Shown here: positions 2,584 through 24,956 of the stretch, piece by piece
Position numbering within the stretch: position 1 is the first letter of the stretch
How the letters are laid out: every line of letters begins with the position of its first letter
Source: Rugalucina vietnamica
Lineage: Eukaryota; Mollusca; Bivalvia; Lucinida; Lucinidae
NCBI GenBank assembly: GCA_964017185.1
Contig: OZ024879.1
Location: forward strand, 23,315,456-23,379,455
Length of the DNA stretch: 64,000 nucleotides
Direction of reading: 5' to 3'
The notes under the pieces: generated by a model
What the model was told of the DNA's origin: nothing
Database searches by the model: none
The model's input: the letters and a program-made list of their open reading frames with translations, nothing else
Translations under genes and position numbers: made by a program

Positions 2584-5500
2584 CTGAGGTAATAAAGAAA
2601 ACAGATCATCAGGATAAAATGTCTGTGTAATGTATACCCCCTTATACCCCACTTTTAAACTAGGGTATGCAGGGGTATACATATTTTTCCTATATTTGCT
2701 CCAAGACATAGATTGTGGGTACTCGTTAGAACTGCCTCACCTCGTGTACGCACAATCTATGTTTTGAGCAAAAGTAAGAAGAATATATCAAAAGTTTTCT
2801 AATGAAAATTTTCAATTTTTACAGAAAAACCTGTACACTACATGGGCGTGTTTTCCTAATGGAGAAATGTTGCAGAATATCAGCTACAGCAACCTTTACC
2901 CTGAGGTTATACAGAAACAATACGGTAAAACATGTAGAGTACATGTACAACCTCATTCTAGCGCTATCTTTGGGGTTCATAGAAGCAGACATTGTTATTA
3001 TAAAACTGTTATAATGAGATGACTTTCTATAGATATACAGCAAAATTATCATTTGGGAGCCATGACTTGGCCGTTTTATGATGAAAACCTAATTATAGTG
3101 AGACATGTTATAATGAGGTTAAATGTATCTCTATTTACTTTTACAATCAAATACTAACATACTACAGGCACTCAAAATGGGGTCATAGTATTTTGACCAA
3201 TCATAAAAACAAATGAACCCTCGCATAAAAAGCAAAATCAACAATGTTAACATGTTTTCTGGCAGGTGTTCATTAATATATGAGCTGCATCATGAAAAAA
3301 ACAAAAACAAAAAAAACAGATTTTTGCATATGCGAAAACAAAGGCCCAGATCAGCAACACTGCACAGCTGATCAGCCTCTTTGTTTTTGCTACTTGGACA
3401 GTACAATTCCTCTTCTACTTATAGCCAATATTTCAAGCCTCTAGCCTGCTTCTGTGACATTACAGGCTGATTTGTGTTGCACCTGGTCAGAAACCCAAAA
3501 GACCTGTTTTCTTGCATCGCGGCTCAAATATGGTGCAAGTATGGGTTTCCCTTGAAACTTATACCTGAGCCACCTTGTGGGAAAACCAACAATCTGCATA
3601 TGCAAAAACAAAGATGCAGATCAGCTTCGCGGTAACCGCAAAGCTGATCGGCGCCTTTGTTTTCGGTACTCGGACAGTACAATTCCTCTTCTACTTATAG
3701 CCAATATTTCAAGCCTCTAGCCTGCTTCTGTGACATTACAGGCCGATTTGTGTCGCACCTGGTTAGAAACCCAAAAGACATGTTTTCTTGCATCGCGTCT
3801 TATATATGGTGCAAGTATGGGTTTCCCTTGAAGCTTATATCTGAGCCACCTCGTGAGAAAACCAACAATCTGCATACGCAAAAACAAAGAAGCAGATCAG
3901 CCTTTGTTTTCGCAACTCGGATAGTACAATTCCTCTTCTACTTAACTCCAAAATTTCAAGCTTCTAGCCTGCTTCTGTAGCTGTACAGGCCGGTTTGTGT
4001 CAGACCTGTTCTGAAACCACATTGTTGGTTTTTCCACGAGGTTGCTCATCTGTCAAACTTGGCACTGTTTCTTGTTGCTTTGGGAGACTGGATTTTTATG
4101 TTCATAACCACTCAAAATCAAATGAACACCTTTGTCTCAGACCAGGTCCTGAGGTTTTAAAAGTTTTTTCATGCTCAGCTCAGCTGAGACTATAATTTAT
4201 ATTGCTCATAAATGTTAAAATTCCAACAAATGCCAGCATGTTAAATTACTGGTATTGGTGATCTTAACCCAAAATTTCATTTCAGTATTTATGAGCAATT
4301 TAAATTTTATGCTCATGAAAAAAGTTTTATTACCTGGGGACCAGGAGATAGGCTTTCAGGTCCTTTTCTTGCGTGTTACTGTATATAGTTTCATTCAAAA
4401 GATAAGATCAGCGCACTTATCTTACCAGAATTTTCCATGGTTTATTGATAAAGCAACAAGCCTTGTAAACCAGTTGCATGAACTTAAGCTGTCATTAAAC
4501 ACTAAGCTGCCATTAAATTCAAGAACTCTCTTAGTCAAGATGGCATTAATTTTTCTGCTGCATAAAACAATTTTAGGTACTTCCGGAGCAGCATTAGCTA
4601 ATGACAGCTTTTAAAATACACTAGTGTTGGTTTTCATAGACAAAAATGCAACTGAAATGAAGCTGCCATTAAGTTAACTAGGACTTTAACCTGCAATTAA
4701 GAGTTAATAGAGTTTTATGCAACAGGGCCCTGCAGGAGTCTTGAGTTTGATCTAGGGCTGCTGCTTCTAGGGTACTTCAGATGAGACCCAGCTCTGGCAC
4801 GCAGGTTATAAAACTTTTTTCAAGCTCAACACAGCTGAGCGTGAAATTTCAACTGCTCATAAATGCCAAAATAGCCAAAAATTGGTAAAACATACAGGCT
4901 TAGATTAGCTAAGCCTGTAATTTATCCTGCTGATAAATGTTAAATGCCAACAATTGTTGGCATTTTAACATTTATCAGCAGGATAAATTTTAGTCTCAGC
5001 AGAGTTGAGCATAAAAAAAGTTTTATAACCTTATTCCCAGTACGCAGATGGGACATTAAACTGATGTCTGATCTTTATATGACCAAAGCTGTTAATTGAC
5101 CTTAGCTACATGGCAACCAAGCCATAAATTTTTAAACAAATATGAAAGCAAGTATAAATTACCTGGCAATGAAATGTGGGATGTGAATCACAAAAACAAC
5201 CAACCAAACTCACCGTAACAACAGGGTTTTTGCCCCACTGTACAATATAGCCTGGCAAAGGCCCAACAAGATGTTTATACGGCGGGTAAGGGTGGAATGT
5301 TTCACGACCTTCCTCGTCCAATGAGCTGATTACGGGAACTCCCACTTTCTCTAAGCACCGACCTGTTTCCACGTCCTCACTTGTTTCCGGGTCACCAGGG
5401 TCATGTACAACGCTACAATTGTCTATTAATAGACCATGTTCCATCATACGTCGGAAACCGGCCTTGCTAATAACGTAACCTGCACCACCTGACATATAAC

Positions 5501-7834
5501 CGCTGTTCAGAAATTTCTTAAATAAATACCCAAGATGACCTGGTTTACTGGAATTATGTTTTGCCAATAAATAATGTAAGTTCTCCATTATTACGTATGT
5601 ATCGTCATCTGTTTTAATCAGCCAATCAAATTCATTGATATATTGTTTATATATAACATTGAAAGCGTATCTGATTTTATTGATTATTGTGAATCTGTTG
5701 TCAGGTATATCTGTGCTGAGAAAGTCAAATCGCTGTTGTTTTGTTGTAAGAAGATATAAATGTTTGTCACATCTTCTAACCCAGGTCATGTTAACCGCTC
5801 GTGCTTTGGACTCAAGATCTTGCTCCCTTGTCATGATAAGACAGAGTATTTTACCAGCTTTGCTATTCCCTCTTCTACCAAAAACATCTGGAAATGAAAT
5901 AGAACTTTGTTGAAATGATACTTTTGCAAGCACATATATATTTTGGAGATAAAGGCTTTGTCAACCGCTTCACAAAAGCCAAGGCAGACACCTGCATTGC
6001 AAGATAGAAAATATTTGATGGAACTTAATATATTATTATTGATATATTTCTTATTTTTGCTCAAAACATAGATTGTGGGTACATGTAAGAACCACCTCGC
6101 CAAGGCGGTTGTAACGAGTACCCACAATCTATGTTTTGGAGCAAAAATAAGAAAGATAGATATAACCATGCATACCCCAGTTTTACTATATAAATGTGGG
6201 GTATAAGCGGGTATACATTACACGAACATTATCCTAACCACATCATATGAGCCGTGTCATGAGAAAACCAGATTTTTGCCTATGATATATAAACTCAGAT
6301 AGTACAATTCCTCTTCTACTTGAATCCAAAATTTCAAGTGACTAGCTTTCCTCTGAGACTGTACAGGCCGGTTTGTGTCAGACTTGGTCGGAAACCCAGA
6401 AGACAGGTTTTCTCGCGTCGCGGTTCATATTTGGAACCTCCTCCACAGATGTAGATTACCAATACTTGGTGCACATTCCTTACATTACTTATTGACAAAT
6501 TCTCTTCTTGAAACAGCAGAAGATGAAGAACGGTCTTGAAAACATTTGCATGGCCATGAAGCAAATGTGTCAGATGTGAGGATCAGCCGACATTCGCTGG
6601 TCTGGTATTAGATGCTACCTGACAACCAAGCCATAAATTTTTAAACAAATATGAAAGCAAGTATAAATTACCTGGCAATGAAATGTTACTGATATACTGT
6701 ACAAAGCTCCAGCTTTGTGGCTGTTCTCCTGCAGTTTGATTTAAACCTGAAATGAATGTAAAATCATTATGTACAAAAGGGAAATAACCACTATCTAAAT
6801 CACTGATTGAATTCAAACAGATCTATTCTACAAGTATAAGCTTTAACAAAAAGCTTGGTCTACGCTTCGCATATATAAACTAGAATGTCAAAGAATCTGA
6901 CCGTACTCCCATTTCATCGTGGCTCATGTGACTGAACAGAAATAAAACGCTGCGCGGTCAAAGCATTCATACCTGACAATCGACCGTCACAATACTGTCA
7001 GTTCATTTCATTCCGTTGTGGCTTGAATAGAATGTAATTAGCTACACGGCAGGTGGGGCGCGGTCAAAGCTTTCATACCTGACCATATAGCGTCACAATA
7101 CCGTACCTGACCATATATCGGTTCATTTCATTCCGTTGTTGCTTAGATAGAATGCAATCATGCACCAGTTCCACGAATTTGACAATTTGGCCCATTCTTG
7201 GTACCTACTGCACCATTGGTACAAATGTTACCAACCAAAGGGAGGTTTGCATGGGTGTTTTGGGTGTTTACACAGTCCTTGGCGAAACGACCCGGAATCC
7301 TACTAACACGATGGTTAAGCCACTAGACTCAAACGTGCAGTTGCAGTTGTAGAAAGGTGAATGAGTTGTCTTGTAAGTAGGTCAATCTCAAACTTTAGAG
7401 TAGTCTACGCGCTGGCGCGTAGACAATAATGTTAGAAAAAATACAAACTAAACAATTAAGAACTGATTTTGTTGCACCTGATTCTCAATGTCTAGAGTAA
7501 ACTGCTGAGGTTATGCCTGGATAGACAGTTACTAGTCCAGGTCCTGAGGTTATAAAACTTTTTTTTTTCATCATCAGCTCAAAGAAGTAAATGAGTAAAT
7601 AAGTGAGGAATACATGTATGCTCCTTATACAAAAAAATGTCTTTTGGAGAAATTCAGAATAACACATATTCAATTTCAATTTTTCATATTTATGATTAAA
7701 TTTCCAATAATGCAAGACTGCTTACCATTGCTAATTGCTCCATATGATACAAAAATAAACACAGACGCCACCAAGAGAAAGAAAACCAGTCCAATCTTCA
7801 AGTCTGTCACCAGGTGATGCCTAGTCTCCTTCAT
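2416..7834 (-). CDS. C1GALT1: C1GALT1-like core-1 beta-1,3-galactosyltransferase, four exons
   Basis: This type II Golgi enzyme family transfers galactose from UDP-Gal to GalNAc-Ser/Thr, making the core 1 O-glycan (T antigen). The inferred join is 7834..7726, 6746..6672, 5887..5214 and 2583..2416, giving 341 codons; the human enzyme is 363. All introns are GT-AG with phases 1, 1 and 0, and the frame stays open throughout. Residues 14-32 are a hydrophobic signal anchor. NQT, NIS and NMT are N-glycosylation sequons. KTDDDTY (DDD at 155-157) is the metal/UDP-sugar motif, YMSGGAGYVISK is a family signature, and GEGCCS...FHY is the conserved C-terminus. An in-frame TGA lies three codons before the ATG. 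Introns carry family A, B and E repeats. The galactosyltransferase assignment is firm; one-to-one orthology with vertebrate C1GALT1 is inferred. Confidence 0.92.
2626..2860. repeat. Family E repeat with central palindrome, copy 1
   Basis: The centre (2693-2780) is an inverted repeat with ACATAGATTGTGGGTAC on one side and CACAATCTATGTTTTGAGC on the other. Flanks such as GGGGTATAC on the left and TACATGGGCGTGTTTTC on the right recur at 43336-43600, so the unit is about 235-265 bp. It lies in intron 3 of the C1GALT1-like gene, close to exon 4. Confidence 0.65.
2861..2917 (-). pseudogene. Decayed partial duplicate of C1GALT1-like exon 4
   Basis: On the minus strand this stretch reads as a CTCAG acceptor-like sequence followed by a frame equivalent to GKGCCS, then a stop, then YSATF. 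It matches the start of true exon 4 (GEGCCSQYSTTF) at most positions but has TGA where the gene has a glutamine codon. It lies about 280 bp upstream of the functional exon in intron 3, separated from it by a family E repeat. A local duplication followed by decay is the simplest reading. Confidence 0.65.
3282..4047. mobile_element. Three family A MITEs in a tandem-duplicated block
   Basis: Copies lie at about 3282-3525, 3567-3800 and 3843-4047. The first two share a 41-bp spacer beginning ATATGGTGCAAGTATGGG, so the block was duplicated with a period near 275 bp. The last copy has long terminal inverted repeats (GAGCCACCTCGTG against CACGAGGTTGCTC) and the ATCT target duplication at 3839-3842 and 4048-4051. 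It lacks part of the internal hairpin. All are non-coding and lie in intron 3 of the C1GALT1-like gene. Confidence 0.7.
4140..5035. repeat. Family J inverted repeats
   Basis: The start (about 4147, GTCCTGAGGTTTTAAAAG then GCTCAGCTCAGCTGAGACT) and the end (about 4990-5035, TAGTCTCAGCAGAGTTGAGC then AGTTTTATAACC) are inverted relative to one another. A third relative starts near 4800, and a short fragment lies at 7541-7580. The interior is AT-rich and non-coding. This looks like a non-autonomous TIR element or two adjacent ones. Confidence 0.45.
4918..4988. repeat. 71-bp near-perfect palindrome
   Basis: AATTTATCCTGCTGATAAAT at the left is mirrored by ATTTATCAGCAGGATAAATT at the right around the centre CAATTG, with a one-base indel. 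A second small hairpin (CAGGCTTA/TAAGCCTG) lies immediately to the left at 4893-4917. It forms part of the family J region. Confidence 0.75.
5114..5177 (-). repeat. 64-bp duplicate of the exon 2 / intron 2 junction
   Basis: These 64 bases are identical to 6623-6686, which spans the end of C1GALT1-like exon 2, its GT donor and the first part of intron 2. This copy lies just downstream of exon 3, so intron 3 holds an extra 5' splice-site-like sequence. Identity over the whole length implies a recent duplication. Confidence 0.8.
5214..5887 (-). CDS. C1GALT1: C1GALT1-like exon 3 (catalytic domain)
   Basis: A 674-bp exon encoding residues 62-286. The acceptor is TTTCCAG before 5887 and the donor is GTGAGT at 5213. 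In order it contains ILCLIMT (first beta strand), NMTWVRRC, DWLIKTDDDTY with the metal-binding aspartates, YMSGGAGYVIS, EDVETGRCLEKVGV and ETFHPYPP, all typical of the core-1 galactosyltransferase family. Reading through the donor gives a spurious C-terminal tail ending at 5106. This is the most conserved part of the gene. Confidence 0.95.
6049..6155. mobile_element. Family E palindromic core, copy 2
   Basis: AAAACATAGATTGTGGGTAC is mirrored by GTACCCACAATCTATGTTTT around CACCTCGCCAAGGCGG. The core matches the copies at 2693-2780 and 43411-43517. It lies in intron 2 of the C1GALT1-like gene. Confidence 0.7.
6249..6426. mobile_element. Family A MITE lacking its internal hairpin
   Basis: It starts GAGCCGTGTCATGAGAAAACC and ends TCGCGTCGCGGTTC, flanked by ATAT on both sides (6245-6248 and 6427-6430). 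The GATCAGCTTC hairpin present in full copies is missing, leaving 178 bp. It lies in intron 2 of the C1GALT1-like gene. Confidence 0.7.
6672..6746 (-). CDS. C1GALT1: C1GALT1-like exon 2 (stem region)
   Basis: A 75-bp exon with TTTCAG acceptor before 6746 and GTAATT donor at 6671, phase 1 on both sides. It encodes residues 37-61 and has two sequons (NQT and NIS), as expected for the luminal stem between anchor and catalytic domain. Its last bases and the start of intron 2 are duplicated at 5114-5177. Homology for stem regions is weak, so the support here is splice phase and position. Confidence 0.7.
6830..7426 (-). mobile_element. Family B Helitron-like element, copy 2
   Basis: It is nearly identical to 1500-2082. 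The plus strand starts ACAAGTATAAGCTTTAAC, which is the 3' hairpin end of the minus-oriented element. It finishes with the 22-bp GTCTACGCG palindrome and AA. It lies in intron 1 of the C1GALT1-like gene and contains a short internal duplication around 7080-7120 (a second CCTGACCATAT). Non-coding. Confidence 0.6.
7726..7834 (-). CDS. C1GALT1: C1GALT1-like exon 1 (signal anchor)
   Basis: The ATG is at 7834-7832, with TGA in frame nine bases upstream and G at -3. The exon encodes 36 residues plus one base of codon 37. A short basic, polar start is followed by a hydrophobic stretch (IGLVFFLLVASVFIFVSYG), as expected for a type II Golgi membrane anchor. The donor is GTAAGC at 7725. The exon is too short to stand out as an open frame; it was found by matching phase and topology to the downstream exons. 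A family A MITE begins about 60 bp upstream, so the promoter must lie in or beyond repeat DNA. Confidence 0.8.
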
Positions 7835-7895
7835 AACTCGTCACTGTGGCACAGGTTGTGTGGCAGTTACATGCAAAGTCTGAAAACACATATGG

Positions 7896-10375: not shown

Positions 10376-10857
10376 ACATGACCGTCATGAGTAGTCTACT
10401 GAGAAGCTAATCCCACTGTGGCATAACTCGCTAATAAGGATTTCAACATTTCGTGAATTTCGGTCACAACAATTTCATGAAGGACACAACTTATTCGCGA
10501 ATTGTGGGTGGAAGCATGGAGGTGACTCTCTTTTTGTGCAGTTTTCTGTGCTTTAAAGTTAAATTATTGTTTAAATCAACCTGTTTTTCTGTGCCGCATA
10601 CTCATTGGGTTACAGTTTTAAAGCAATAAAATTCTACAGTCACATTTGCTACTTCTCTTTACCTTTTTTATGCGAAAAACTGTGTAATTCATGTTCTTTT
10701 AGGGTTAAACATGAATATGTTTGAAATTTCTATAATGATTTTGCGCTGAAAATGAAGGAAAATCAATTGCAAAAACACCTGTCAAAAACTGTCTTAAAAT
10801 AATATGCATAAGTCATGAAATAAAGAAGAAAAGATGACTACCCTTTGTTGATGCGGC

Positions 10858-10950
10858 TACAACTATTTCTTGAGAAGGCTATAACTGTTTCAGGAGTCTG
10901 TTACAACTGTTTCTTGATCTTAATGATTGTTGGACACAAACGTTTCGTGA
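10858..10950 (+). repeat. Left subterminal motif cluster of the CACTGTG element
   Basis: Four variants of ACAACTnTTTCTTGA (10858, 10881, 10901 and 10933) lie 444 bp inside the left terminus. Related variants such as CACAACAATTTCATGAAGG make up most of the TIR itself. The matching right cluster lies the same distance from the other end. Such motifs are candidate transposase-binding sites. Confidence 0.6.
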
Positions 10951-11684
10951 TCACTGATTTGCAAAAAAATAAAATCTGATTGAAGTCACCTCAGAAGCTT
11001 GGTGTGTTTTTCGCATTTAGTTTCACTAGTATTGTCATGATCAAATACTTAAATATAAGAAATTATCTTTATATTGATTTAAGACCCTATTTCAAACCAT
11101 CATTTGGACTCTAAAAATTGCCTTTGGGGTTGTAGACCAGACAAGACTCACATTGCTGCCCGGGTTTCTTAACTCCTTATATTTCAGTAAATGTCAATGT
11201 TATATTGTCTAATATGTCAAATGTTTAGAAATCTCCCAAAACTTATTTTGCTATGTGTATCGATAGACACTCATTGTGATATTCCTGATTTTCAGTAGGT
11301 ATAGGGCAAATGTGCTGCCACCTAGGGAACACCTATGAAAATGTGAATACCAACTTTAGACTGTATAGTTCCTCTTTGTAAAACTTATGAAGTAATTGTT
11401 TACACTTTGTCAGAATCTGTAGTATATTTCCGAAATTGCTTTGTGAAAATGGTGAACATCAAACATAAACTGTGACGGGCTGCGGCCATCTTTGATTAGG
11501 AAAATTAATGCAGGGTTTTAGAAATGTGCTGATATTTTTTGCGATAACTTCATTCTCGGAAAGTGTGTTATCTTATTTCTACATAAGCATCAAGCTGACA
11601 CATTGTTTGTTCAACTTTGATTTTTTATTTTCTGAACGTCTGTGATAAATCCATACTTTTCCAGGGACAGGCTTCAATACCGCT

Positions 11685-13093
11685 TTTAAGCACACCTGAG
11701 CTGAAAGCTCAAAGTGAGATTATAGTATAGGCATGATTCATCGTCCGTGCATCGTCATCCGTCGTCGTCGTCCACAATTTCAAAGATCGTCTTCTCTGAA
11801 ACCGCTTGGCATATCAAGTTGAAGTTTTATGTGAACCCTGCATGGGTAGGGGGAATGAAAGTTTGTTCATGGGATCTTGGTCACATGACCAAGATGTTCA
11901 CATGACCAAGATGGCCACCACGTCCATATATGATAAGATTTTCAAAAATCTTCTCAAGAACTGGTGAGCTGATTGCCACGAAACTTGATATGTAGCATCA
12001 AAGACTACAGCCAATCATAATTTGTTAAAATGATGATCTTAGGATGACCTTGACCTATTTTATGGCAAGTTCAATTTTGAAAACATAGGCTTTTGCATTG
12101 GAAAAGGCGTAAACATTGGATAATTTGGAGGTTACTGCAGCCTGAGAGTTGAAAGTTGCTAGATGCAGACAACTAATGGAGTGAATGAAGGTATTTAATT
12201 AATTAAGGTCAAGGTCATTTCTTGACCTTGACCCATGGTCATTGAACTATCTTTTTTTTTTCAGAAATCACAGGGCCTCAAAACTCTTCTTCTCCAGAAC
12301 CGGTGGGGCAATTTTCACGGAACTTGGTATGTACTATGTAGTATCTGGGATTCAAGCCCATCGGAGTTTGTTCAGTCAAATGATGGCCCTTGGATGGCAT
12401 TGACCAATTTTACGGCAAGGTCTGTTTTGGAAACATAGGCTTGTACATTGGAAAAAAGGTGAAAACAGTGGATATTTTGGAAACGTTTGCAGATTGAGAC
12501 CTGAAAGTTGGCAGAAGCAGACAACTAATGACAGTATGCGATTAATTAAGGTCAAAGTCATTTCTTGACCTGGGCCCAAGGTGATTGAAATATCGAAATT
12601 AAAGATTTGTTTTTCTCAGTAACCTCTCAGCCTATGAATGTGAAATTTTATTTGAAGAAGCCTTCATGCATAGGGAGAACGAAATTTTGTAATCTGTGTT
12701 GCATGCTCAACATGGCTGCCATGTTCACAAATGCTCAAAAATACTCAAAAAGCTTCTTCCCGAGAACTGGTGGGCCGATATTCCTGAAATTTGGTATGTA
12801 GCATTTGGGATCTTAGCCCATCATAGTTTGTTCAAATGATGACCCAAGGATCGCCTTGACCTATTTTATGGCAAGGTCAATTTTGGAAACTGGCTTTCAC
12901 ATGGGAAAAATGAAAACAATGGATTTTTTTGGAAACTACTGCAGCCCGAGAACTGAAACTTGGCAGATGCAGACAACTAAATAAAGTCAATAAAGGTATG
13001 CGAGTATTCAAGGTCAAGGTCATTTCATGATGACTAAATGCTCCAAGATCAGGCTTCAGGTGAGCGTTCTCAGGACCAATGGTCCTTTGGTCT
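11685..13093 (-). repeat. Family F repeat, minus-oriented, about 1.4 kb
   Basis: It runs from a CACCTGAGCTGAAAGCTC end, corresponding to the reverse of the 3' hairpin, to GGACCAATGGTCC near 13080, the reverse of the family start. It includes a CGTC-rich stretch and degenerate repeats with GACCAAGATGGCC and GGTCAAGGTCA. Compared with the other copies it is diverged and shorter. It lies within the CACTGTG element. No coding capacity. Confidence 0.65.
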
Positions 13094-13266
13094 TCTTAAC
13101 CTACACATTCCCAGGTTGAGAATAACCAGATTAGACATTTTATGCATGTTTCGCTTTCCAAAACTGAGCTTTACGGAGGGCAGAAGCACAAAGGCAAACT
13201 CATATTCGGTCAGTGGAGTTTTTCACACATAGCATATTGTATCAATTGTCCCACAAAGAAAAAACC

Positions 13267-15699
13267 AGAGGACCAATGGTCCTGTAAACGCTCACCTGAG
13301 TCTGCTGCATATACCAATAAACATGTTTGAATATTATGGTATTTAACCCCAGTGCAGGGGCTTATGAAGACCCTGGGCCGTTTTTCTTTTTTCAGAATAA
13401 TCAATATTCTGTCCATTTGCCAATTTCTTGCTGGTTTTTTACCTTCAAATGACATTTTAACAGTTTTTCCCATTCAAATGCATGGGCAACCCATGTTGAC
13501 CTTGCCATAAACTTGGTCAAGGTCATCACAGGGTCATGATTTACATATTTATTGTAGTACTTTAGCCATGGATGCTTCACGCCAAGTTTCGTTGAAATCA
13601 ATCTATTGGTTTCAGAGAAGAAGATATTTGAAGGGTTTGTACCATATATGGGCATGGCCTCCCTCTTGGTCATGTGACCTACATTATTAATATATACATT
13701 GGTTCCCCCATCCTATAGATGCCTCACATAAAATTTGGCTTCAATTGGCCAAGTGGTTTCAGAGGAGAAGATGTTTGAATATTATGGTAATATACATGTA
13801 TATTGCCCCAGGGTGTGGGCATATGAGCCCTAAGGTCCAATTTTTTTTCAGAATCATTAATATTTAGTCCTACTACCCATTTCCTGCAAGATTTTCACCT
13901 AAAATGACCTTTTAAAAGTTTTCCCCATTCCAATGCATTGGCGACCTATGTTGACCTTGTCGTAAAATAGGTCAAGGTCACCACAGGGTCATGATTTATA
14001 TATACATTGTAGTACTTCAGCCATTGGTGCTTCATGCCAAGTTTCTTTGAAATCGGTTCACCAGATTCGGAGAAGAAGATTTTTGAAGGGTTTTTTACCA
14101 TATCTGGGCATGGCAGCCATCTTGGTCATGTGAACTAGATAATATTTATATATACATTAATTCCCCCATTCCATAGATGCTTCACATAAAATTTAGCTTT
14201 GATTCGCCAAGCGGTTTCAGAGAAGATGTTTGAATATTATGGTAATATACATGTATATTGCCCCGGGGTGGGGGCAGATGAGCCCCTGGGGTCCAATTTT
14301 TGTCAAAATCATTAATATTCAGTCCTACTGCCCATTTCTTGCAAGACTATCACTTTAATTGACATTTTAACAGTTTTCCCTATTCAAATGCATTGGTGAC
14401 CTATGTTGACCTTGCCGTAAAAAAGGTCAAGGTCATCACAGGGTCGATCAGGATTTATATACACATTGTAGTACTTGAGCCATCGATGCTTCATGCCAAG
14501 TTTCTTTGAAATCGATCCACTGATTCTGGAGAAGAAGATTTTTGAAGGGTTTTTACCGTATATGGGCATTGCGGCCATCTTGGTCATGTGACCTGGATTA
14601 TTTATTTGTACATTAATAACCTCTTCCTATTGATGCTTCACATAAAATTTGGCTTTGATTGGCAAAGCGGTTTCAAAGGAGATGATGTTTGAATACTATG
14701 GTAATATACATGTATATTGCCCCGGGGTGGGGGCATATGAGCCCCTGGGGTCCAATTTTTTTTCAGAATCATTAATATTCAGTCCTACTGCCCATTTTCT
14801 GCAAGACTTTGACTTTAAATGACATTTTAAAAGTTTTCCCCATTCAAATGCATTGGCGACCTATGTTGACCTTGCCGTAAAACAGGTCAAGGTCATCACA
14901 GGGTCATGATTTATATATACATTGTAGTGCTTGAGCCATCGATGCTTCATGCCAAGTTTCGACTCGTTGAAATCAGTCCACTGGTTCTAGAGAAGAAGAT
15001 TTTTGCAGGGGTTTTACCATATATGGGCATGGCGGCCATCTTGGTCATGTGACCTGGATTATTTATATACACATTAATTCCTCTTCCTATTGATGCTTCA
15101 CATAAAATTTGGCTTTGATTGGCCAAGCGGTTTCAGAGGAGATGATGTTTGAATATTATGGTAATATACATGTATATTGCCCAGGGGTGGGGGCATATGA
15201 GCCCCTGGGGTCCAATTTTTTTCAGAATCATTAATATTCAGTCCTACTGCCCATTTCCTGCAAGACTTTGACTTTAAATGACATTTTAAAAGTTTTCCCC
15301 ATTCAAATGCATTGGCGACCTATGTTGACCTTGCCGTAAAACAGGTCAAGGTCATCACAGGGTCATAATTTATATACACATTGTAGTGCTTGAGCCATTG
15401 ATGCTTCATGCCAAGTTTCATTGAAATCGGGCCACTGGTTCGGGATAAGAAGATTTTTGAAGGGTTTTTACCATATATGGGCATGGCGGCCATCTTGGTC
15501 ATGTGACCTGGATTCCTTATATACACATTGGTTCCCCCTTCCTATAGATGCTTCATATAAAATTTGGCTTTGATTGGCCAAGCAGTTTCAGAGGAGAAGA
15601 TCTTTGAAATTGTGAACGGACGACGGACGGACGGACGGACGCCGGATCATGGCCATCCTATAAGCTCACCTTGTGAGCCTAACGGCTCAGGTGAGCTAA
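13267..15699 (+). repeat. Family F repeat with about five 459-bp tandem units
   Basis: It starts AGAGGACCAATGGTCCTG. Landmarks such as AGATGTTTGAATATTATGG recur at about 13764, 14222, 14681, 15141 and 15597, spacing the units by 456-460 bp. Each unit holds GACCTTGCCGTAAAA, GGTCAAGGTCATC and GGCCATCTTGGTCATGTGACC. After the last unit come a GACG microsatellite and a 3' terminus with the hairpin GAGCCTAACGGCTC and GTGAGCTAA. It lies within the CACTGTG element. Non-coding; short frames across it are shadows. Confidence 0.8.
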
Positions 15700-16009
15700 A
15701 AATGTAGTGAACTTACATAATTTGGCATGTAGCTGGGCCATATATGAAATATATGTGATAATAATTTCAGTATCAGCAGAAAACAGGAAATTCGATTTTT
15801 TTTCAAACTTTTCCAAAGAACTAAAACTATACCCTAACTTTTTTCACGTGTATAATTATAATAGATAGTTTCATTTATGCTATTTTACAGAAAGCAGTAG
15901 CCGCTAGGATCTCAATTCCTCTTCTGAAATTCTTTTAACTATATTGATAAAGAAAAGATAATAACCTGCCAGTAAAATTGTCTTAAAATTCAACATCATC
16001 ACAGTAAAA

Positions 16010-16320
16010 GGTACATGTAGGCAATGGCATAATCAGAAAAAAAGTCCTACTCCAAAAACCGAGGTGGGAAAAACTAAATTGACAAATGAAAACTTATACT
16101 TAAAAAACATATCGTAAGCCGAGTGAGCAGCTATTTCCCAATAGTGGGCCAGTCAGTTACCCGAACTTATCTAAAACTAGGAAAATGTACATAAGGTCCA
16201 AACAGCACAATTCGACTCCAAAGCATAAAACAAAAAGAACCACAACAGAAGTATTGCCTTGGAATGATCAGTAGTATAAAATTACTGGGGGCGGGGGTTA
16301 AATCGATTTTGAAATTGTTT
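16010..16320 (+). repeat. Family C repeat, copy 1
   Basis: It starts GGTACATGTAGGCAATGGC and contains AAACCGAGGTGGGAAAAA and GTGAGCAGCTATTTCCCA. It continues through a GAACCACAACAGAAGTATTG block to AAAATTACTGGGGG. This is one of the longest copies and matches the one at 36824-37150. The class is unknown and no protein is evident. Confidence 0.6.
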
Positions 16321-16327
16321 TATTCAT

Positions 16328-16447
16328 TTGGCGAATTTTCTACTCATTAGCAAATTTTTGGCCAAAATTTTACTGATTAGCATTTTTTTTGGCCCAAGTT
16401 TTGCTGATTAGTGATTGTTTGGCCAAAATTTTACTGATTAGCAATTT
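16328..16447. repeat. Four tandem units of about 30 bp
   Basis: The motif TTTTGGCCAAAATTTTACTG followed by ATTAGCA repeats with periods of 30, 31 and 30 bp. The units are imperfect. It directly follows a family C repeat. Confidence 0.7.
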
Positions 16448-17090
16448 CAGAGGTACCCCATCGAGACCATCCATTACAATAATTGAAAAGCAACACAGTG
16501 GTATTGCCGATAGACACTATAAGGTCGCGTAGAAGGCAGGGATTTTGGCCATAATCAAAAATGAAACACTGTGGCAGCGTCTTTGTCGGTGCTCTGACAA
16601 GAACACGGAGGGTGGATTGATTAGACCTAGCCGTGAGGTCACGGTAGCGGCCCCGTGATCGGCTCTTTGTGCTGCACGTTGTACGGTCCCTTAAAACACA
16701 AAAAATGGATTCGACGGACATGCATGAAAGTTGCACTGCTAACACCGTGGTCAGCCGTGTGGCTGTATGGAGATTAGACAGCGCGATGTAAAGGGCGCAC
16801 AAAACAGTGATCTGATCTGCAGTGTGCGCACTGCGAGCGCCACAAAATATAAGTTGATTGATTGATTCTTTTATTAACAATAGAAAAACGACATTGCGGT
16901 GATTTGTAAGTAAAAACAAGGTTATGTTGTGTTCTATGTGAGGTTGTTGATGATAAAACTACTGTGCTCATTACGATCACGGCTTGTACTATGTCTGTAT
17001 ATTCACCTGTTTTGGTACACATTGTCCTTTTTCAGTGCTTGGTTTGTACACATGTTTAAACTTGTATACATACTTAATACCGTGTATTGC
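16448..17090. other. No gene recognised; possible 3' end of a minus-strand retroelement
   Basis: A 162-codon minus frame (16431-16919) has no recognisable domain. On the minus strand AATAAAAG followed by three AATC units lies around 16855-16880, which resembles a retroposon tail. The element it might belong to is not identifiable. Confidence 0.3.
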
Positions 17091-17186
17091 TCAAGAAACA
17101 GTTATGACTGACTCAAGAAACAGTTATGACTGACTCAAGAAATGTTTGTAGCTTTCTCCTGGCTGACCCCTGAAATAGTTGTGTCC
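17091..17186 (-). repeat. Right subterminal motif cluster of the CACTGTG element
   Basis: TCAAGAAACAGTTATGACTG occurs twice in tandem (period 21 bp), followed by TCAAGAAATGTTTGT and CCTGAAATAGTTGTGTCC. These are reverse complements of the left-cluster motifs. The cluster edge lies 438 bp inside the right terminus, almost the same offset as on the left. Confidence 0.6.
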
Positions 17187-17624
17187 ACTAGCTGACTTGG
17201 TATGTGGGATTCTCGGCGTATTACAGACTCTACTGTTACAGAAATTTCAATCTATTTATACCAAGAAGGTCTTTAGGTGTCCTTATATATTTATAGCATG
17301 CCCAAAGCCTGGTGCAAAAGGAATTTTTTACTGAATTGGCAATGAAACTAGGAAAACAACTAATTTTGTTAGAAAAATGAGAACAAGTATCTTTAATTAG
17401 CTTCCCCAGTTGTAAAAAGTACATATTCACTTGTCCATATGCCTCGCCAAGGCATATGAAACTTTCATTTTAGATTTCGCCTTAATCACTTCAAAGCATG
17501 GCTTTAAACATAGCAGGTACAGCTTCATCCAGGTAATTCGCGAACAAGTTGTGTCCTTCGTGAAATTGTTGTGTCAGAAATTCACGAAATGTTGAAATCC
17601 TTATTAGCGAGTTATGCCACAGTG

Positions 17625-18662
17625 AATCCACAACTCAAACCAACATAAGCAACACAGTTCATCAAAATGGCGATCCGTGACACTGGATCATTAGCCTATA
17701 GTGATGCCCTGAAAAAACTCATTCTTCCTTAGAACCATTCCAGTTTGAAATAGTCCCCCTTGTTCAGTGGTCTCATCCAAGACCATTGAGGAATTTAAGG
17801 CTTCCATTTAAACATAGGCCCAGAGGCATGCATTTTAGTATGCCACTGATCTATATTTTTTTAATGGCCCATCCCAAATGTTTTCTCCCTTGACTAAATT
17901 CAAAATATAGCAACCCGCCCCACACCTGAGGTGATGATCAGAAATCGATCGACTCAGTATCAGAAGGTAGATAGGTGGGTGGCACACACCCAAATGCCAC
18001 CACCCCCCTCTAGATCCGGGCTTAAACAGATTTATTCTTGTGTGAAAATTGTGGTTGGCAGCTCAGCTAAGACTCATACCTGGGACCTCTTGCAAATGTT
18101 TAGATTGTACATGTTAGAATATCTGACCGATTGAAATACTACCACTATCTGTAGGATGAAAAACACGGAACTCATCGGTTTTTAATTTATTCCTAACAAA
18201 ACATGTCGACGTGTCAACCAGACTAACCAACACTTTGAATGAAAAGGCCCCGATAAGACCAATCATTCGATCATTCAGCTATTTATCAAATTCAATATTT
18301 TGATTTATCTGCGGTTATTAACTCTTCCTATTCTTCTTACAACTGCAACTGCAGTTTTGCTTCCAGGTCATCCCGGTCCAAAGATATCTTGGTTACCCTA
18401 AAATGCGGGCCCGGGATAAAACGCATTAGTTTTACCTGAGATAAAGATGTGTGTGTATATATGTCTCTGGTTTTACGCAGCAATATATAATATATAGGAA
18501 TACACTGCACATAGGGATATATAGTGTAACGCAGCTATTGGAACGCAGTGACATATTGCAGCTAGTATTAAACAGTATTGAGAAAAGACAAGTGCAGCCA
18601 TGCATCCATGAATACAGCGAGTGAGTGATTACTTTAAGACGGCTCTTTGGTATAGTTTGGTA
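17625..18662. other. No gene recognised
   Basis: Between the CACTGTG element and the 3' end of the first CR1-like retrotransposon there are only short frames. The stretch near 18440-18560 is rich in TATATA and small palindromes. Confidence 0.4.
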
Positions 18663-18744: not shown

Positions 18745-19317
18745 TTAGTCCCTTGAACGCAGGAGTGAAGCGAACTTGGACACACAGTCATCAGACATTT
18801 CAGCAGAGGAGACAAGTGAATCAGGGAGGTCATTCCAGTCCCTGATAGTCTGTGGAAAGAAACTACTTTTGTACGCTTCTTTGCTAGCTGAAGGTATCTG
18901 AAAAGCCAAAGAGTGTTGATTTCTACAACGCTTATTCTTTGGGATAAGGTCATCTGTGGGTATTCTGGCTTTACCCTTTAGACCTTTGTATAGCAAGATA
19001 AGTCTACTATCCTTCCTCCTTTTCTTAAGAGATTCCCATTTCAGTTGACCTAAAATGCCAGTCATGCTCCCAGTTTCAAAAACATAATTTCCCGTCACAA
19101 ACCTTGCAGCACGATTTTGGACCGTTTCCAGTTCTTCCTGGAGGCCATGAGTGTGAGGGTCCCAAACTGAGCTTCCATATTCCAAGACCGGCCGCACCAG
19201 TCCTTTATAAGCTGCTTCTTTCACATCTGGGGGACAAGAATGCAAATTTCTCCTCAAGAATCCGAGAGTTCTGTTAGCCTTTGTACAAACATTGGAAATA
19301 TGAGTATTCCATTTCAA
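18745..19317 (-). CDS. CR1-like ORF, C-terminal region after RT
   Basis: This continues the RT protein after the 4-bp duplication. It includes KWNTHISNVCTKANRTLGFL, LVRPVLEYGSSVWDP, VQNRAARFV and SSFFPQTIRDWNDLP, which are typical of the region downstream of the RT fingers and palm in CR1, L2 and jockey-like elements. It ends about 80 bp before the terminal ATTCAG repeats. Confidence 0.8.
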   Translation of the reverse strand: MKWNTHISNVCTKANRTLGFLRRNLHSCPPDVKEAAYKGLVRPVLEYGSSVWDPHTHGLQEELETVQNRAARFVTGNYVFETGSMTGILGQLKWESLKKRRKDSRLILLYKGLKGKARIPTDDLIPKNKRCRNQHSLAFQIPSASKEAYKSSFFPQTIRDWNDLPDSLVSSAEMSDDCVSKFASLLRSRD

Positions 19318-19405
19318 ATCATTTGTGATAGTTACACCCAGGTATTTTATACTTTCAACGTTTTCCAGTAAAGTGCCCTCAAGGGTGTAGTTAGCCTGTA
19401 TCTTA

Positions 19406-21226
19406 CTATCTAGACCGTTTATTTGTCAGCTGCATCATGTTGCATTTGACGGGTTGAAATCTCATTCCCCATTTTCTAGCCCAACTGCCTAAGCGATCAA
19501 TGTCTCTTTGAAGTTTCAATGTATCCACTTCATTCTCGATTTCACGATAGCAAACACAATCATCAGCAAAGAGTCTTATTTCAGATTCGATGTCTGCTGA
19601 GATGTCATTTATATACAAGGAAAACAGCAAGGGGCCGAGAACGGTGCCCTGAGGGACACCCGACACAACTGGAGCCCAATCCGATTTAATACCATTAACC
19701 ACTACCCTTTGTTGTCTGAAACAAAGGAAAGCATTTATCCAATTCAGTGTTGTTCCACCTATTCCATAGCTGAACAATTTGCTTTTAAGGAGTTCATGGG
19801 GAGGAGTATCGAAAGCCTTTTCAAAATCGAGTATAAAAGTGTCGACCTGGCCTTTTTTGTCTAAGATTTTGGCCCAGTCATTTATCACTGTAGTCAACTG
19901 AGTTTCACAGCTATGCCATTTCCTAAATGCGTGTTGCCTGTCCGACAGGAGTTCATGTTCATCAAGATGGGCCATAATATTAGAGCATACAATATGTTCA
20001 AGAAGCTTACAAGGAATGCATGTCAAAGAAACAGGGCGGTAATTGCGGGCAAGTGACCTGTCGCCCTTCTTAAACAGGGGGCAAATATTAGCAAGAGACC
20101 ATTCTTTAGGAATTTCACCTGTATCAATTGACTGCTGGAAGAGATGGGCGAATACCGGCCCTAATTCCATAGCCAGTTCCTTTAGGACTCTGGGATGAAG
20201 CTCATCAGACCCTAAGGCTTTAGACGAGTTTAGACCTTTGAGAAGTTTGGTCACCCCTTCCTTTGTGACCACAATATCATGCATGAATGGGGCAGATCTA
20301 TCCATAAGAGGGACCTGTTTGTATTCACTTTTAGTGAAAACATCCGAGAACTGACCATTAAATTCTTCCGCCTTCTCAAATTCGGATTGAGCTATTCCAC
20401 TTCCATTTCTCTTTTTCAACGGGGGAATACCTTGGGTATCTTTTTTCTGACTGTTTATGTACCTGTAAAAATCTCTAGGATTAGCCTTAACATCTCCTAC
20501 CAAGTTGTTTACATAAAGATCATGCTGCTTCCTGATATCAGCTTTGATCTCTTTCCGTAAAGATTCAAATTTGGATCTAAATTTTGCACTACCAGTCTTT
20601 TTAGCTTTTGCATGAGTTGCATTTTTTCTGCGAAACTTCCTTCTTATTTCAGGTGTTATCCAAGGGACAGAGGAAACTGAGCGACTAGTTTTTGAGGGGA
20701 TATGTTTATCTGCCGATTCCTGAATAAACGATGTAATGAGATTGAAATTTTCCTGGACCGACCTAGTATCTGAGTAACCGTTGAAGTATCTTTCCTTTGC
20801 AAATTTAAGTGTTTCTGCTCTCATAGATTCATAATCACCTTTCTGATAACGATACACTTTTCTCCTAGGTTTCTTTATAGGGGGGATAGCAATTTTCAAT
20901 GTGCCAGAAACAATGTCATGATCACTGAGCTTATCCGGGGAATGAATGTCTACAAACTGACCAGGAAGAGAGGTCAAAATTAAGTCCAAAGTATTTCTTT
21001 CTCTGGTGGGGAAATTGACTAATTGTTCCAAACCATGGTCATTCATGATATCTATCAAAATCTGACCCTCCGTCTGACTCAATGATGACCCAGATTTGCT
21101 GAGTCTGTCCGGCCATACAATATCTCTAAAGTTAAAATCTCCTAAAACATGAATTAAGGGGGGGGGGGTTGTTGCCTTTATTAATATTTTTGATTTTGTC
21201 AAGCTGTTCTCTAAATAAATTGTCAA
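19406..21226 (-). CDS. CR1-like ORF, endonuclease C-terminal half and reverse transcriptase
   Basis: The 606-codon frame begins within the endonuclease. LIHVLGDFNFRD and SDHDIVSG are the catalytic Asp/Asn and Asp-His motifs. Then comes a basic linker and a reverse transcriptase with NYRPVSLT, FILDFEKAFD (first catalytic aspartate), SGVPQGTVLGPLLF and FADD (catalytic pair). The nuclease nicks target DNA and the RT copies element RNA at the nick. The frame ends at KRSR and a stop, because CTAGATAG replaces the CTAG found in the related copy at 33.7 kb: a 4-bp duplication. The annotated methionine lies inside a larger domain and is not a real start. Confidence 0.85.
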   Translation of the reverse strand: MTIYLENSLTKSKILIKATTPPPLIHVLGDFNFRDIVWPDRLSKSGSSLSQTEGQILIDIMNDHGLEQLVNFPTRERNTLDLILTSLPGQFVDIHSPDKLSDHDIVSGTLKIAIPPIKKPRRKVYRYQKGDYESMRAETLKFAKERYFNGYSDTRSVQENFNLITSFIQESADKHIPSKTSRSVSSVPWITPEIRRKFRRKNATHAKAKKTGSAKFRSKFESLRKEIKADIRKQHDLYVNNLVGDVKANPRDFYRYINSQKKDTQGIPPLKKRNGSGIAQSEFEKAEEFNGQFSDVFTKSEYKQVPLMDRSAPFMHDIVVTKEGVTKLLKGLNSSKALGSDELHPRVLKELAMELGPVFAHLFQQSIDTGEIPKEWSLANICPLFKKGDRSLARNYRPVSLTCIPCKLLEHIVCSNIMAHLDEHELLSDRQHAFRKWHSCETQLTTVINDWAKILDKKGQVDTFILDFEKAFDTPPHELLKSKLFSYGIGGTTLNWINAFLCFRQQRVVVNGIKSDWAPVVSGVPQGTVLGPLLFSLYINDISADIESEIRLFADDCVCYREIENEVDTLKLQRDIDRLGSWARKWGMRFQPVKCNMMQLTNKRSR

Positions 21227-21566
21227 ACTTTTCCAGGGAATTCAATAAGTCATTTCCATTGTCCGATACTGGTAAATGACCATCGACAGGTGGTCGATAC
21301 CAGCTAGCCACAAAGTGAGTTTTCTTATTTACAAAAAGTTTGACCCAAACTGACTCTGAGTCATTGTCCAATTCTGTGAGGGGCATGTGTGGGATGTCCT
21401 TGTGTACAAGAAGCATAACACCACCACCATTTAAGGTTCTATCCTTTCTGTCCACGCTGCATGGAAAAGATTCCGGAAATAATTCAGATGTTAATATGGA
21501 ATTGTCAATTTTTGTTTCCTGAATCGCCAAAATCTGAGATTGATGAAAATCAATGAAGGCCAACAA
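21132..21566 (-). CDS. CR1-like ORF, endonuclease N-terminal half
   Basis: This continues the endonuclease after the poly-A frameshift. It contains ILAIQETKID, with the conserved glutamate of APE nucleases, a GGGVMLLVHKD loop and FVASWYRPP. It stops after an 11-base C run (coding strand), where the frame shifts again. It is not a separate gene. Confidence 0.75.
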   Translation of the reverse strand: MLAFIDFHQSQILAIQETKIDNSILTSELFPESFPCSVDRKDRTLNGGGVMLLVHKDIPHMPLTELDNDSESVWVKLFVNKKTHFVASWYRPPVDGHLPVSDNGNDLLNSLEKFDNLFREQLDKIKNINKGNNPPPLNSCFRRF

Positions 21567-21567
21567 C

Positions 21568-22266
21568 TCAAGTTTTTTTTCCTCTTATACTGTTTATGTT
21601 GATACTGGAAAATTTCAGACCACTAATAAAACTGTTTTTGCTATTCAAGGTTTCAGTGGACATGGTTTCATGACCTCTTGCAAGTAGGTCAAACCTATTT
21701 TCACTTTCCAAGTTAAACTGTTCATTGAAAAAAGAGTCTGAGAAATTGAAAAAGTCACATTTTGGGCAAATCCATGTACAGTTTGAGTTTTGCATCGTTT
21801 CATACTCTGAGTCTGACATAAAAGAACAGTAATTGTGCACCCACATTTCACATTTGTCACACTGGACAGCCTTATGGGAATTCAAAACAGCACCACTGCA
21901 TAGGCTGCACTCAGCTTTGCAGTTTGAACAATACCAAGAATCATTACCCGACTCAATCTTTGGTAACTCAACGGGACCAAGATTTACGCAAGACGCATGG
22001 ACGCGTTTCTCGCAATCTTCACATTTAACTGCTTTCTCGGCCGCCTTACAATACTTCTTGCACGTGCGGCACTGGAACCTGGGGCCTGGGTTCATTTCTA
22101 TATCTCCAGCCAAAATAATAAGAATCAACAAGTTTGTTCCCTTTGAAGAATTGAAACTGCGTAATCCTTCGGAGCCTCTTCGGTTACCAATTTTCCTTGT
22201 GAGAGCCAAGCTCTGAGCAATTCCACCAACTGATTTACCAAATCCTATACTAGTCCTGGTTCGCAT
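21568..22266 (-). CDS. CR1-like ORF, N-terminal part: 2A-like peptide and two PHD-type fingers
   Basis: Residues 55-62 read DIEMNPGP (22104..22081), the core of a 2A ribosome-skipping peptide, preceded by a hydrophobic LLILIILAG stretch. Two cysteine-rich modules follow. CRTC...CEDC...HASC...WYCSNC (about 66-113) and CSLC...CDKC...HNYC...WICPKC (about 117-166) have the C4HC3 spacing of PHD fingers. The frame ends shortly after NINSIRG, the start of the endonuclease domain, where an extra base in a poly-A run (coding strand) shifts into the next frame. 2A-like sequences at the N-terminus of APE-type retrotransposons are known from other invertebrates. Start codon choice is uncertain. Confidence 0.75.
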   Translation of the reverse strand: MRTRTSIGFGKSVGGIAQSLALTRKIGNRRGSEGLRSFNSSKGTNLLILIILAGDIEMNPGPRFQCRTCKKYCKAAEKAVKCEDCEKRVHASCVNLGPVELPKIESGNDSWYCSNCKAECSLCSGAVLNSHKAVQCDKCEMWVHNYCSFMSDSEYETMQNSNCTWICPKCDFFNFSDSFFNEQFNLESENRFDLLARGHETMSTETLNSKNSFISGLKFSSININSIRGKKT

Positions 22267-23040: not shown

Positions 23041-23058
23041 TGAAATAAAAAAAAAACT

Positions 23059-23382
23059 GTGCTTATTTACATTTTTACCCTTCTGATCAGTCAGTCAACA
23101 AATGTTGAAGCCAATCCGGGGCCTGCGGCGTCTCAATATCCCTGTGGGTATTGTGCATTGGAAGTGACCCGGTCTCAGAAAGGGATTTATTGTGAAGAGT
23201 GTGGTATGTGGTACCACACAGATTGCCAGGGAATTGGTGATGGGACATATGACAGATTATCTGATTCTAAACACATCTGGATATGCATAAATTGCTGTCT
23301 CCCAAATTACTCATCACCATTGTTGGAGTCGCTAGACTCATTTGCTGACAAAACCAGATTTTCTTCGCTTGAACATGATAAG
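23059..23382 (+). CDS. CR1-like element 2: 2A-like peptide and PHD-type finger
   Basis: The frame is open from about 23059 (GTG; no ATG is nearby). NVEANPGP at 23101-23124 differs from the canonical 2A core in having N for the first D, which may weaken skipping. CGYC...CEEC...WYHTDC...WICINC at 23137-23300 is a C4HC3-type finger. The own coding sequence ends at HDK, where the family C repeat begins. The following in-frame residues up to 23550 come from the repeat. Confidence 0.65.
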
Positions 23383-23640
23383 GTTCAAGTAGGCAAAGAT
23401 CAGGAAAAGGCGCAATCAGAAAGAGATTCCCACCCCAAAAACCGAGGTTGGAAAAAAACCAAACTAACAATCAGGCAACCACACCACGAAACACACCGTA
23501 AGCCGAATGAGCACCTACTTTCCCAACAGGTGGCCACTCAGTTACCTTAACTTAATTAAAAATATGAAAACATACATAAGGCGCCAACAGCACAAAAATA
23601 TTAAACACCAAGACATAAAACAAAAAGAACCACCACAGAA
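23381..23640 (+). repeat. Family C repeat inserted in CR1-like element 2
   Basis: It starts GGTTCAAGTAGGCAAAGATC, with AACCGAGGTTGGAAAAAAACC and GGTGGCCACTCAGTTACC, and runs to the GAACCACCACAGAAG block. The CR1 finger domain stops exactly at its left edge. Confidence 0.65.
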
Positions 23641-23644
23641 GTTG

Positions 23645-23918
23645 TGGTAGTTAGAGATAGGAAAATACAAACTGATTGCAAGCAATCCCTGAGGATTGGA
23701 AAAATAAGAGCATTAAATGGATGTACGGGGAGACTTTTTAGGGCCGCCACACGGCACAACCACAAGAACTCTGATATAAAAAGGTACAAGTAGGCAAAGA
23801 TCAGGAAAAGGCGCAATCAGAAAGAGATTCCCACCCCAAAAACCGAGGTGGGAAAAAACAAATTGTGGTAGTTAGAGATAGGAAAATACAAACTGATTGC
23901 AAGCAATCCCTGAGGATA
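23645..23918 (+). repeat. Duplicated 53-bp segment around a partial family C unit
   Basis: The 53-bp stretch starting GTGGTAGTTAGAGATAGG occurs at 23645-23697 and again at 23866-23918. Between them lie 85 bp containing GCCGCCACACGGCACAA (also seen inverted near 42290) and a second, truncated family C start (23783-23860). The second 53-bp copy leads into the CR1 coding sequence. Template switching or a local duplication after the family C insertion would explain it. Confidence 0.6.
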
Positions 23919-24589
23919 GCCTGGATGAAGCTTCAGCATCCTTGTTGACTGCTTCAAACATAAACACTCCATCAAGACCCTCGAACCTGTCCACCAGTGA
24001 TGTGCAACAAACTGCTCCTAGTGCCACATCAACCCCAAAACCCAGTAAAACAAAATCACACAGCTCAAAGCCAAAATGTCAACCTAAAGAACGCATAACA
24101 ATTCTCAACATAAACTGTCGCTCAATTAGGAACAAAATACCAGACCTCCACCAGGTCATAGACCAAACCAAGCCTGAGATCATTGCTTGTACTGAGACCT
24201 GGCTTAAACCAGAAATTGGCTCATCTGAAATCTTCCCATATAGTCTTGGCTACAATATCATTCGTGATGACCGATTTTCTGGAAAAGGAGGTGGTGTCCT
24301 CCTGGCCATATCAAAACGTTTAACTTGTGAAGAACAACCTGAACTCAAATCAGACTGCAACGCCACCTGGGCTAAGATTACTATCAAAGGAGTCAGATCC
24401 ATCTATGTCTCCTCCTTTTATAAACCTCATGAAAATGATGAAAAAAGTCTTTCTGAACTCTGGAAATCAATCAAAAAGATACCCACAAACAGCATAACCT
24501 GGATATTAGGTGATTTCAATATGCCTGATATTGATTGGTCAAACGAAAGTATAAAAACAAAACTCATGCAAATTAAAAACCGTTTATGA
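23897..24589 (+). CDS. CR1-like element 2: endonuclease, first part
   Basis: After a serine- and threonine-rich linker the APE endonuclease begins. ILNINCRSIRNK, IIACTETWL (catalytic glutamate), GKGGGVLLAI, VSSFYKPH and WILGDFNMPDIDW are all present. The frame starts at TTG immediately after a stop, so it is only an open segment of the element. It ends at a frameshift just before 24597. Confidence 0.75.
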   Translation: MQAIPEDSLDEASASLLTASNINTPSRPSNLSTSDVQQTAPSATSTPKPSKTKSHSSKPKCQPKERITILNINCRSIRNKIPDLHQVIDQTKPEIIACTETWLKPEIGSSEIFPYSLGYNIIRDDRFSGKGGGVLLAISKRLTCEEQPELKSDCNATWAKITIKGVRSIYVSSFYKPHENDEKSLSELWKSIKKIPTNSITWILGDFNMPDIDWSNESIKTKLMQIKNRL

Positions 24590-24596
24590 TGATTTC

Positions 24597-24956
24597 ATGG
24601 ATAACCTTACAAACTTCAATTTAGAACAAATGGTCAAAGAACCAACCCTTGAAGAAAATACTTTAGACCTCTTCCTGACAAATCAACCTGGAAAGGTACA
24701 AACCGCAAAAGTCTTGCCCAGCGTCGGCTCATCTGATCATGATATTGTCTACCATGAAATTTCAGTCCCAATAGGTCGCCCAATTCAACCAAAAAGAAAA
24801 ATTAAATTGCACGGAAAAGCAAACTGGGAGTCATTTAAAGCAGATATAGACTCTTTCAATGAAAGTTTCCAGCCTGAAAATGAATCTGACCCAAACAAGT
24901 TATGGACCACTTTCAAAACAGAAATTGATCGCCTGTCAGACATCCATATTCCATAA
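24597..24956 (+). CDS. CR1-like element 2: endonuclease, second part
   Basis: It contains NTLDLFLTNQPG and SSDHDIVYHEI, the catalytic Asp-His motif of the nuclease, then the basic linker towards the RT. It terminates at TAA in the linker. The following 500 bp (24957-25470) have the linker and the RT N-terminus in broken frames. Confidence 0.7.
   Translation: MDNLTNFNLEQMVKEPTLEENTLDLFLTNQPGKVQTAKVLPSVGSSDHDIVYHEISVPIGRPIQPKRKIKLHGKANWESFKADIDSFNESFQPENESDPNKLWTTFKTEIDRLSDIHIP

Follow-up and report, generated by a model that had tools for sequence, protein, structure and literature searches.

Transposons that begin with a CAC-type heptamer and duplicate 5 bp of target DNA carry the signature of the Transib/RAG lineage. 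RAG-like (RAGL) transposons are known in molluscs, and among the protostome examples are non-autonomous elements of the oyster P. imbricata (PMC7204232); Transib is scarce in molluscs, with one element identified in the survey of PMC10294476. Here we describe a 7.2-kb element from the bivalve Rugalucina vietnamica whose terminal inverted repeats (TIRs) begin with CACTGTG. The element lies in a stretch of 64,000 nucleotides (C11:23315456-23379455), hereafter called the window, to which all positions without a contig or locus label refer. The initial annotation, drawn from the letters of the window, had proposed that the element is a non-autonomous relative of Transib and RAG. Our results indicate, with a probability of roughly 0.9, that it is a copy of an orphan, non-autonomous family of cut-and-paste DNA transposons that duplicates 5 bp of its target.

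Identification of a 5-bp-duplicating transposon family

The left TIR (10414-10503, + strand) and the right TIR (17535-17624, − strand) are 90 bp each and identical at 86/90 positions, and both start with CACTGTG. Because the mismatches are confined to positions 49, 51, 65 and 80, the outer 48 bp are identical. The pentamer AATCC, which has no strand as a target-site duplication, abuts each repeat directly on its outside, at 10409-10413 on the left and 17625-17629 on the right. This structure had been described in the initial annotation, and our examination bore it out in full. The inverted-repeat pair is not a product of chance. The first 26 bp of the TIR, with up to three mismatches allowed, matched the window only at the two element ends, and the maximum in 100 shuffled sequences was 0. 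When the window was scanned for CAC..GTG end pairs spaced by 80 bp to 12 kb and bordered directly by a 5-bp repeat, the element pair scored 14/14 bases and the runner-up 10/14. In the host genome as searched (1,089,854,562 bases in 47 contigs), the terminal 18-mer CACTGTGGCATAACTCGC occurs exactly 166 times (82 forward, 84 reverse), and its reversed control 0 times. These three results rule out a chance repeat.

Using the 90-bp TIR as a genome query, recovering copies and measuring their duplications, as had been proposed at the outset, gave the duplication length of the family. The query gave 231 first-look candidates, and the best 40, which were scored, were all 99-100% identical. Around other copies 31 stretches were fetched: 21 contained both ends, 2 jointly held one 14.9-kb copy, and 8 were one-ended. 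With the window copy included, 23 copies have both ends; the one-ended loci and an extra end in L010 gave no duplication. A perfect, flush 5-bp duplication was present in 20/23 copies. Other lengths fitted fewer copies (2 bp in 6/23, 3 bp in 3/23, 4 bp in 3/23, and 6 to 10 bp in none), and when left flanks were compared with the right flanks of other copies, a 5-bp match was seen in 3/506 pairs. All 23 paired copies were kept in this count, including the three that lack a perfect 5-mer: L022 (CTAGT/ATATC), L034 (CTTTT/TTTTT, 4 of 5) and L037 (CAAAA/AAAAT). The frequency of perfect 5-mers, set beside the control with mismatched flanks, therefore identifies the 5-bp duplication as a property of the family. 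The initial annotation had held that duplications of 3 bp or 8 bp in other copies would speak against a Transib/RAG relative, and no such pattern appeared: the 3-bp duplication of CACTA elements is rejected, as it fits only L014, L034 and L037, at T- or A-run sites, and the 8-bp duplication of hAT elements is rejected with 0/23 copies.

The target sites are AT-rich. In the 20 perfect duplications, from which alone composition was calculated, G+C is 19%, compared with 38% in their flanks. The symmetrised counts prefer a palindromic Y-ATNAT-R, with T at position 2 and A at position 4 in 23/40 each.

Architecture of the element and its relatives

The consensus ends of the family form a perfect 90-bp inverted repeat. 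Sampled copies consist of a left arm of ~0.9 kb (up to ~880 bp) and a right arm of ~1.15 kb around variable middles filled with repeats. In the window, the left arm occupies 10414-11295 (+) and matches sampled copies at ~82-93% among the alignments listed; the right arm (~1150 bp) occupies 16474-17624 (−), as delimited by alignment to sampled copies among the matches listed. Between the arms lie a block of repeats at 11679-15702 (no strand), including ~five tandem units of 455 bp at 13387-15608, and a dispersed repeat at 16019-16310 (no strand). The repeats of the block, the 455-bp units among them, also build the variable middles of sampled copies and recur elsewhere in the window. Because this block is made of recurring repeats and 16019-16310 is a dispersed repeat, the 7.2-kb length of the element is inflated.

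Neighbouring end pairs listed on contigs C1-C8 span 3.3 to 27 kb, with 20/31 at 4 to 6 kb; the 27-kb pair may not be a single element. At 55 further ends, the adjoining 45 bp of the interior belonged to the left arm in 30 cases, to the right arm in 21 and to neither in 4. On inspection, one of these four (L065) proved to be the left arm in a shifted position, and three ends keep a different inside sequence. Two observations on individual copies stand apart. The 14.9-kb copy (L016 and L017) contains an internal expansion of another tandem repeat, which carries long open frames. Loci L020 (5606-5983) and L030 (5558-6028) have in common a 1.3-kb segment (96%) at a similar distance from the end, with an open reading frame that matched no Pfam family.

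Each end also carries an array of the motif ACAACNRTTTCNTGA (at most 2 mismatches), with ~five copies per end (2 to 6 on the left, 5 on the right), all pointing inward. The outer 700 bp of 22 elements contain 108 inward copies on the left, 110 on the right and none in the opposite orientation, and 54 kb of element middles contain one copy. In the window, the first copy lies inside the left TIR at 10466-10480 (+) and is followed by an array at 10859-10950 (+; starts at 10859, 10881, 10903 and 10936). On the right, an array with inward orientation at 17091-17182 (−; starts at 17091, 17113, 17135 and 17168) is accompanied by a copy inside the TIR at 17558-17572 (−). The arrays look as arrays of transposase-binding sites would, and their layout is suggestive of binding there. 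A transposase supplied in trans would bind the terminal repeat together with the motif arrays, pair the two ends, cut before CAC, and insert them into target DNA at cuts staggered by 5 bp.

CACTA elements typically carry directed arrays of subterminal motifs. The presence of such arrays here favours a CACTA/EnSpm or other CMC-type element from a lineage with 5-bp duplications, as do the CAC..GTG ends of EnSpm and the CA..TG ends and 2-5 bp duplications of the CMCT clade (PMC12730594). The duplications at our copies speak against it, because 3 bp fits only the three copies at T- or A-run sites named above. We regard such an element as unlikely.

Exact copies of the 18-mer were absent from IMG/VR viral contigs, and exact copies of a 22-mer were absent from prokaryote genome contigs. 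A literature search for CACTGTGG with 'terminal inverted repeat' returned only an assay paper on the recombination signal sequence (RSS); Repbase and most subscription papers fell outside that search, so an earlier description of the family may exist.

Search for the transposase

By eye, no transposase-like frame was seen in the paired copies (open frames of at least 120 aa) or in ten further stretches (at least 110 aa). The longest frames inside copies read, again by eye, as satellite, as a long interspersed nuclear element (L036), or as nothing recognisable. A Pfam scan of 65 open frames from sampled stretches likewise recovered no DNA transposase family; its matches were lipase in 4 frames and RVT_1, zf-RVT, Abhydrolase_6 and DUF3616 in one each. 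The scanned frames were 65 of 93 that passed filtering, out of 191 before satellite-like, low-complexity and L016/L017 frames were removed, and some of them come from one-ended stretches and may fall outside the element. A 175-aa frame in the window copy (16434-16958) matched no Pfam family. The 9.8-kb copy on C8, suspected from its length to be autonomous, was mostly satellite in its 4.5-kb middle part, with no transposase frame there. Neither the frame checks, the Pfam scan and the C8 copy nor the inner sequence of the 55 ends revealed a copy whose interior is clearly coding.

We call the element non-autonomous in the sampled copies because no transposase was recognised there, which agrees with the initial annotation. 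The full-length copy encoding a RAG1/Transib core for which that annotation had suggested looking did not emerge: no RAG1L, RAG2L or RAG/Transib core was recognised in the sampled copies.

We then consider the enzymes present elsewhere in the genome. There are at least 116 matches to the hAT dimerisation domain (150 of 199 candidates scored). When the 55/116 matches on C1-C8 were compared with the 99/166 ends listed there, none lay within 20 kb inside any end, and the nearest was ~1.5 kb outside one. These results bear on a hAT5-type origin, that is, on hAT families with 5-bp duplications, which exist and group with animal hATs (PMC12730594). The 5-bp duplication of our family suits such an element. 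So does the preference for T at position 2 and A at position 4, which recalls the hAT duplication pattern nTnnnnAn. The lack of hAT matches inside the ends compared on C1-C8 argues the other way, as does the third base of the element end, a C, which the usual hAT end does not have. A hAT5-type element is, in our judgement, an unlikely source, behind both the CMC-type element and the Transib element considered next.

The RAG1 family (PF12940) has three matching places at two loci. At C9:34093893-34100319 (L040, L043 and L047), a convergent RAG1L-RAG2L pair has long open frames. The RAG1L frame of 782 residues finds its best solved match in the RAG1L chain of 6b40 (E 1.4e-194; Pfam RAG1 E 1.6e-81), a structure that we take to be amphioxus ProtoRAG. 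The RAG2L frame of 501 residues has kelch repeats and a PHD match below the cut-off, and among solved structures it is closest to RAG2L of 6b40 (E 1.6e-23). In 13.4 kb around the pair, with 4.9 kb flanking the RAG2L side and ~2 kb the opposite side, there was no copy of the element's terminal repeat and no convincing end pair; the pair is possibly a domesticated or relict RAGL. The second RAG1L, at C11:21950802-21958850 (L041 and L042), is in two pieces ~6 kb apart, one of them with an internal stop, and has no copy of the terminal repeat within 1.5 kb of flank. Taken together, no RAG1L-RAG2L genes were found inside or flanked by element ends in the sampled copies and the 13.4 kb of the C9 pair.

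A Transib probe of 71 C-terminal residues, which was checked against the solved transposase 6pqn (E 2.3e-27), presumably HzTransib, matched only the two RAG1L loci in the genome, at 36 and 34% identity. This result counts against a classical Transib element, non-autonomous and mobilised by a Transib transposase; in favour of it speak the CACTGTG ends and the 5-bp duplications, since Transib makes 5-bp duplications (PMC8355894) and its ends resemble the RSS heptamer (PMC8289069). The AT-rich targets, compared with the GC preference stated in PMC8289069, and the single element identified in surveyed molluscs (PMC10294476) also argue against it. We consider it rather unlikely, next after the CMC-type element.

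Relationship to the Transib/RAG lineage

Both ends of the element bear an RSS-like heptamer that starts with CAC, and the 5-bp duplication expected of Transib was found in 20/23 copies. Read on the opposite strand, the V(D)J heptamer CACAGTG becomes CACTGTG, which is itself among the most used heptamers in an assay of mammalian RAG (PMC9723617). We also count in favour of this branch that the CMCT lineages, Transib included, for the most part have CA..TG ends and duplicate 2-5 bp (PMC12730594).

The following points weigh against our interpretation, either as a whole or in its Transib/RAG branch. The moving enzyme is not found in the copies examined. Well-kept ends are over-represented, because the sampled copies are the best 40 of 231, and an autonomous copy may sit among the 66/166 places of the 18-mer beyond the 100 that were listed. 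With respect to the branch, the RSS nonamer ACAAAAACC is matched at 3/9 positions at both the 12- and the 23-bp spacing, and at no more than 4/9 at any spacing from 10 to 35. The protostome RAGL end consensus, CACTWMCAAACKTYKBB (PMC7204232), is matched by the element end at 9/17 positions, compared with a random mean of 9.6 (P 0.75); because of this, the ends beyond CACT are no closer to that consensus than chance. No Transib transposase was found in the genome by one C-terminal probe, which an unusual or intron-split gene could escape. Finally, the duplications of ProtoRAG are GC-biased, with the same preference seen for Transib and vertebrate RAG (PMC8289069), and the GC-biased targets expected of Transib were not observed here (19% vs 38% G+C).

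The proposal of a Transib/RAG relative has therefore stood in part. The element is a real transposon, its family duplicates 5 bp, its ends begin with CAC, and RAG1-type genes exist in the genome. The kinship itself, for which the heptamer and the duplication length are the whole argument, is unproven; opposed to it are the single-probe result for Transib, the sampled copies without a recognised core, the C9 pair without these repeats, the lack of a nonamer and of a fit to the RAGL consensus, and the AT-rich targets. A place in the Transib/RAG branch, whether as a classical Transib element, through the host RAG1L-RAG2L, or as an undetected or lost relative, is tentative and somewhat short of even odds. 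That the superfamily is something other than Transib/RAG, CMC or hAT5 seems quite unlikely.

The RAG1L-RAG2L proteins encoded by the genome itself could mobilise the family in trans. A long RAG1L frame stands beside a convergent RAG2L frame, no Transib was found with the probe, protostome RAGL elements have 5'-CAC ends and make 5-bp duplications (PMC7204232), and CACTGTG ranks among the heptamers on which mammalian RAG performed best in the assay (PMC9723617). On the other hand, 4.9 kb next to RAG2L and ~2 kb at the opposite side of the pair contain no such ends, the repeat matches the RAGL consensus at the 9/17 expected of random sequence (mean 9.6), and the targets are AT-rich. We consider this improbable. 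More improbable still is the specific proposal that the family represents natural trans substrates of that recombinase, to which the RSS-grade heptamer, the 5-bp duplications, RAG1L as the sole enzyme of RAG1/Transib type found, and a pair without ends of its own would point. If true, an invertebrate RAG recombinase would act on remote ends, a stage postulated between the transposon and the V(D)J system.

Other features of the window

Further blocks of the 11679-15702 repeat occur at 37354-39335, 41083-41508 and 50583-52581, with ends like AGCTCACCTGAGC, and are present in sampled family copies. The dispersed repeat of 16019-16310 (up to ~290 bp, unclassified) has pieces at six other places, 23402, 34232, 36848, 53182, 54046 and 63759. 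Long frames at 18745-22266, 23044-26745, 28776-32435, 57290-58042 and 59686-61599 appear by eye to encode non-LTR (long terminal repeat) retrotransposon endonuclease and reverse transcriptase, and frames at 5106-6217 and ~7660-7832 appear to belong to a C1GALT1-like galactosyltransferase gene on the − strand. Two occurrences of CACTGTGGCA were taken as coincidence: one at 7842, just upstream of the neighbouring gene's apparent first exon, and one at 16567, the sole reverse match in the window being the right end itself.

Comparison with known systems

A dispersed family with the Transib/RAG signature and no visible enzyme offers a clean test case. Identification of its transposase would broaden the RAG/Transib lineage or else reveal that another superfamily has come to the same signature; the latter outcome would be a caution against naming elements by their ends alone.

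At least one tested feature departs from Transib membership and at least one from RAGL membership, and the expectations of a 3-bp CACTA and an 8-bp hAT duplication fail as well. The hAT5 elements resemble our family in the 5-bp duplication (PMC12730594), whereas the copies compared hold no hAT match inside. CACTA/EnSpm and other CMC elements have similar CAC..GTG ends, but their reported duplications are 3 bp or 2 bp, compared with 5 bp here (PMC12730594, PMC6004678). Protostome RAGL transposons have in common with it 5'-CAC ends, 5-bp duplications and the existence of non-autonomous copies (PMC7204232); they differ in that their consensus CACTWMCAAACKTYKBB is unmatched past CACT and that the sampled copies are without a recognised RAG1L or RAG2L. 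Transib shares the CAC-type terminal heptamer and the 5-bp duplication (PMC8289069, PMC8355894), whereas the probe detected no Transib transposase in this genome and the targets are AT-rich. Its directed subterminal arrays may set the element further apart from Transib.

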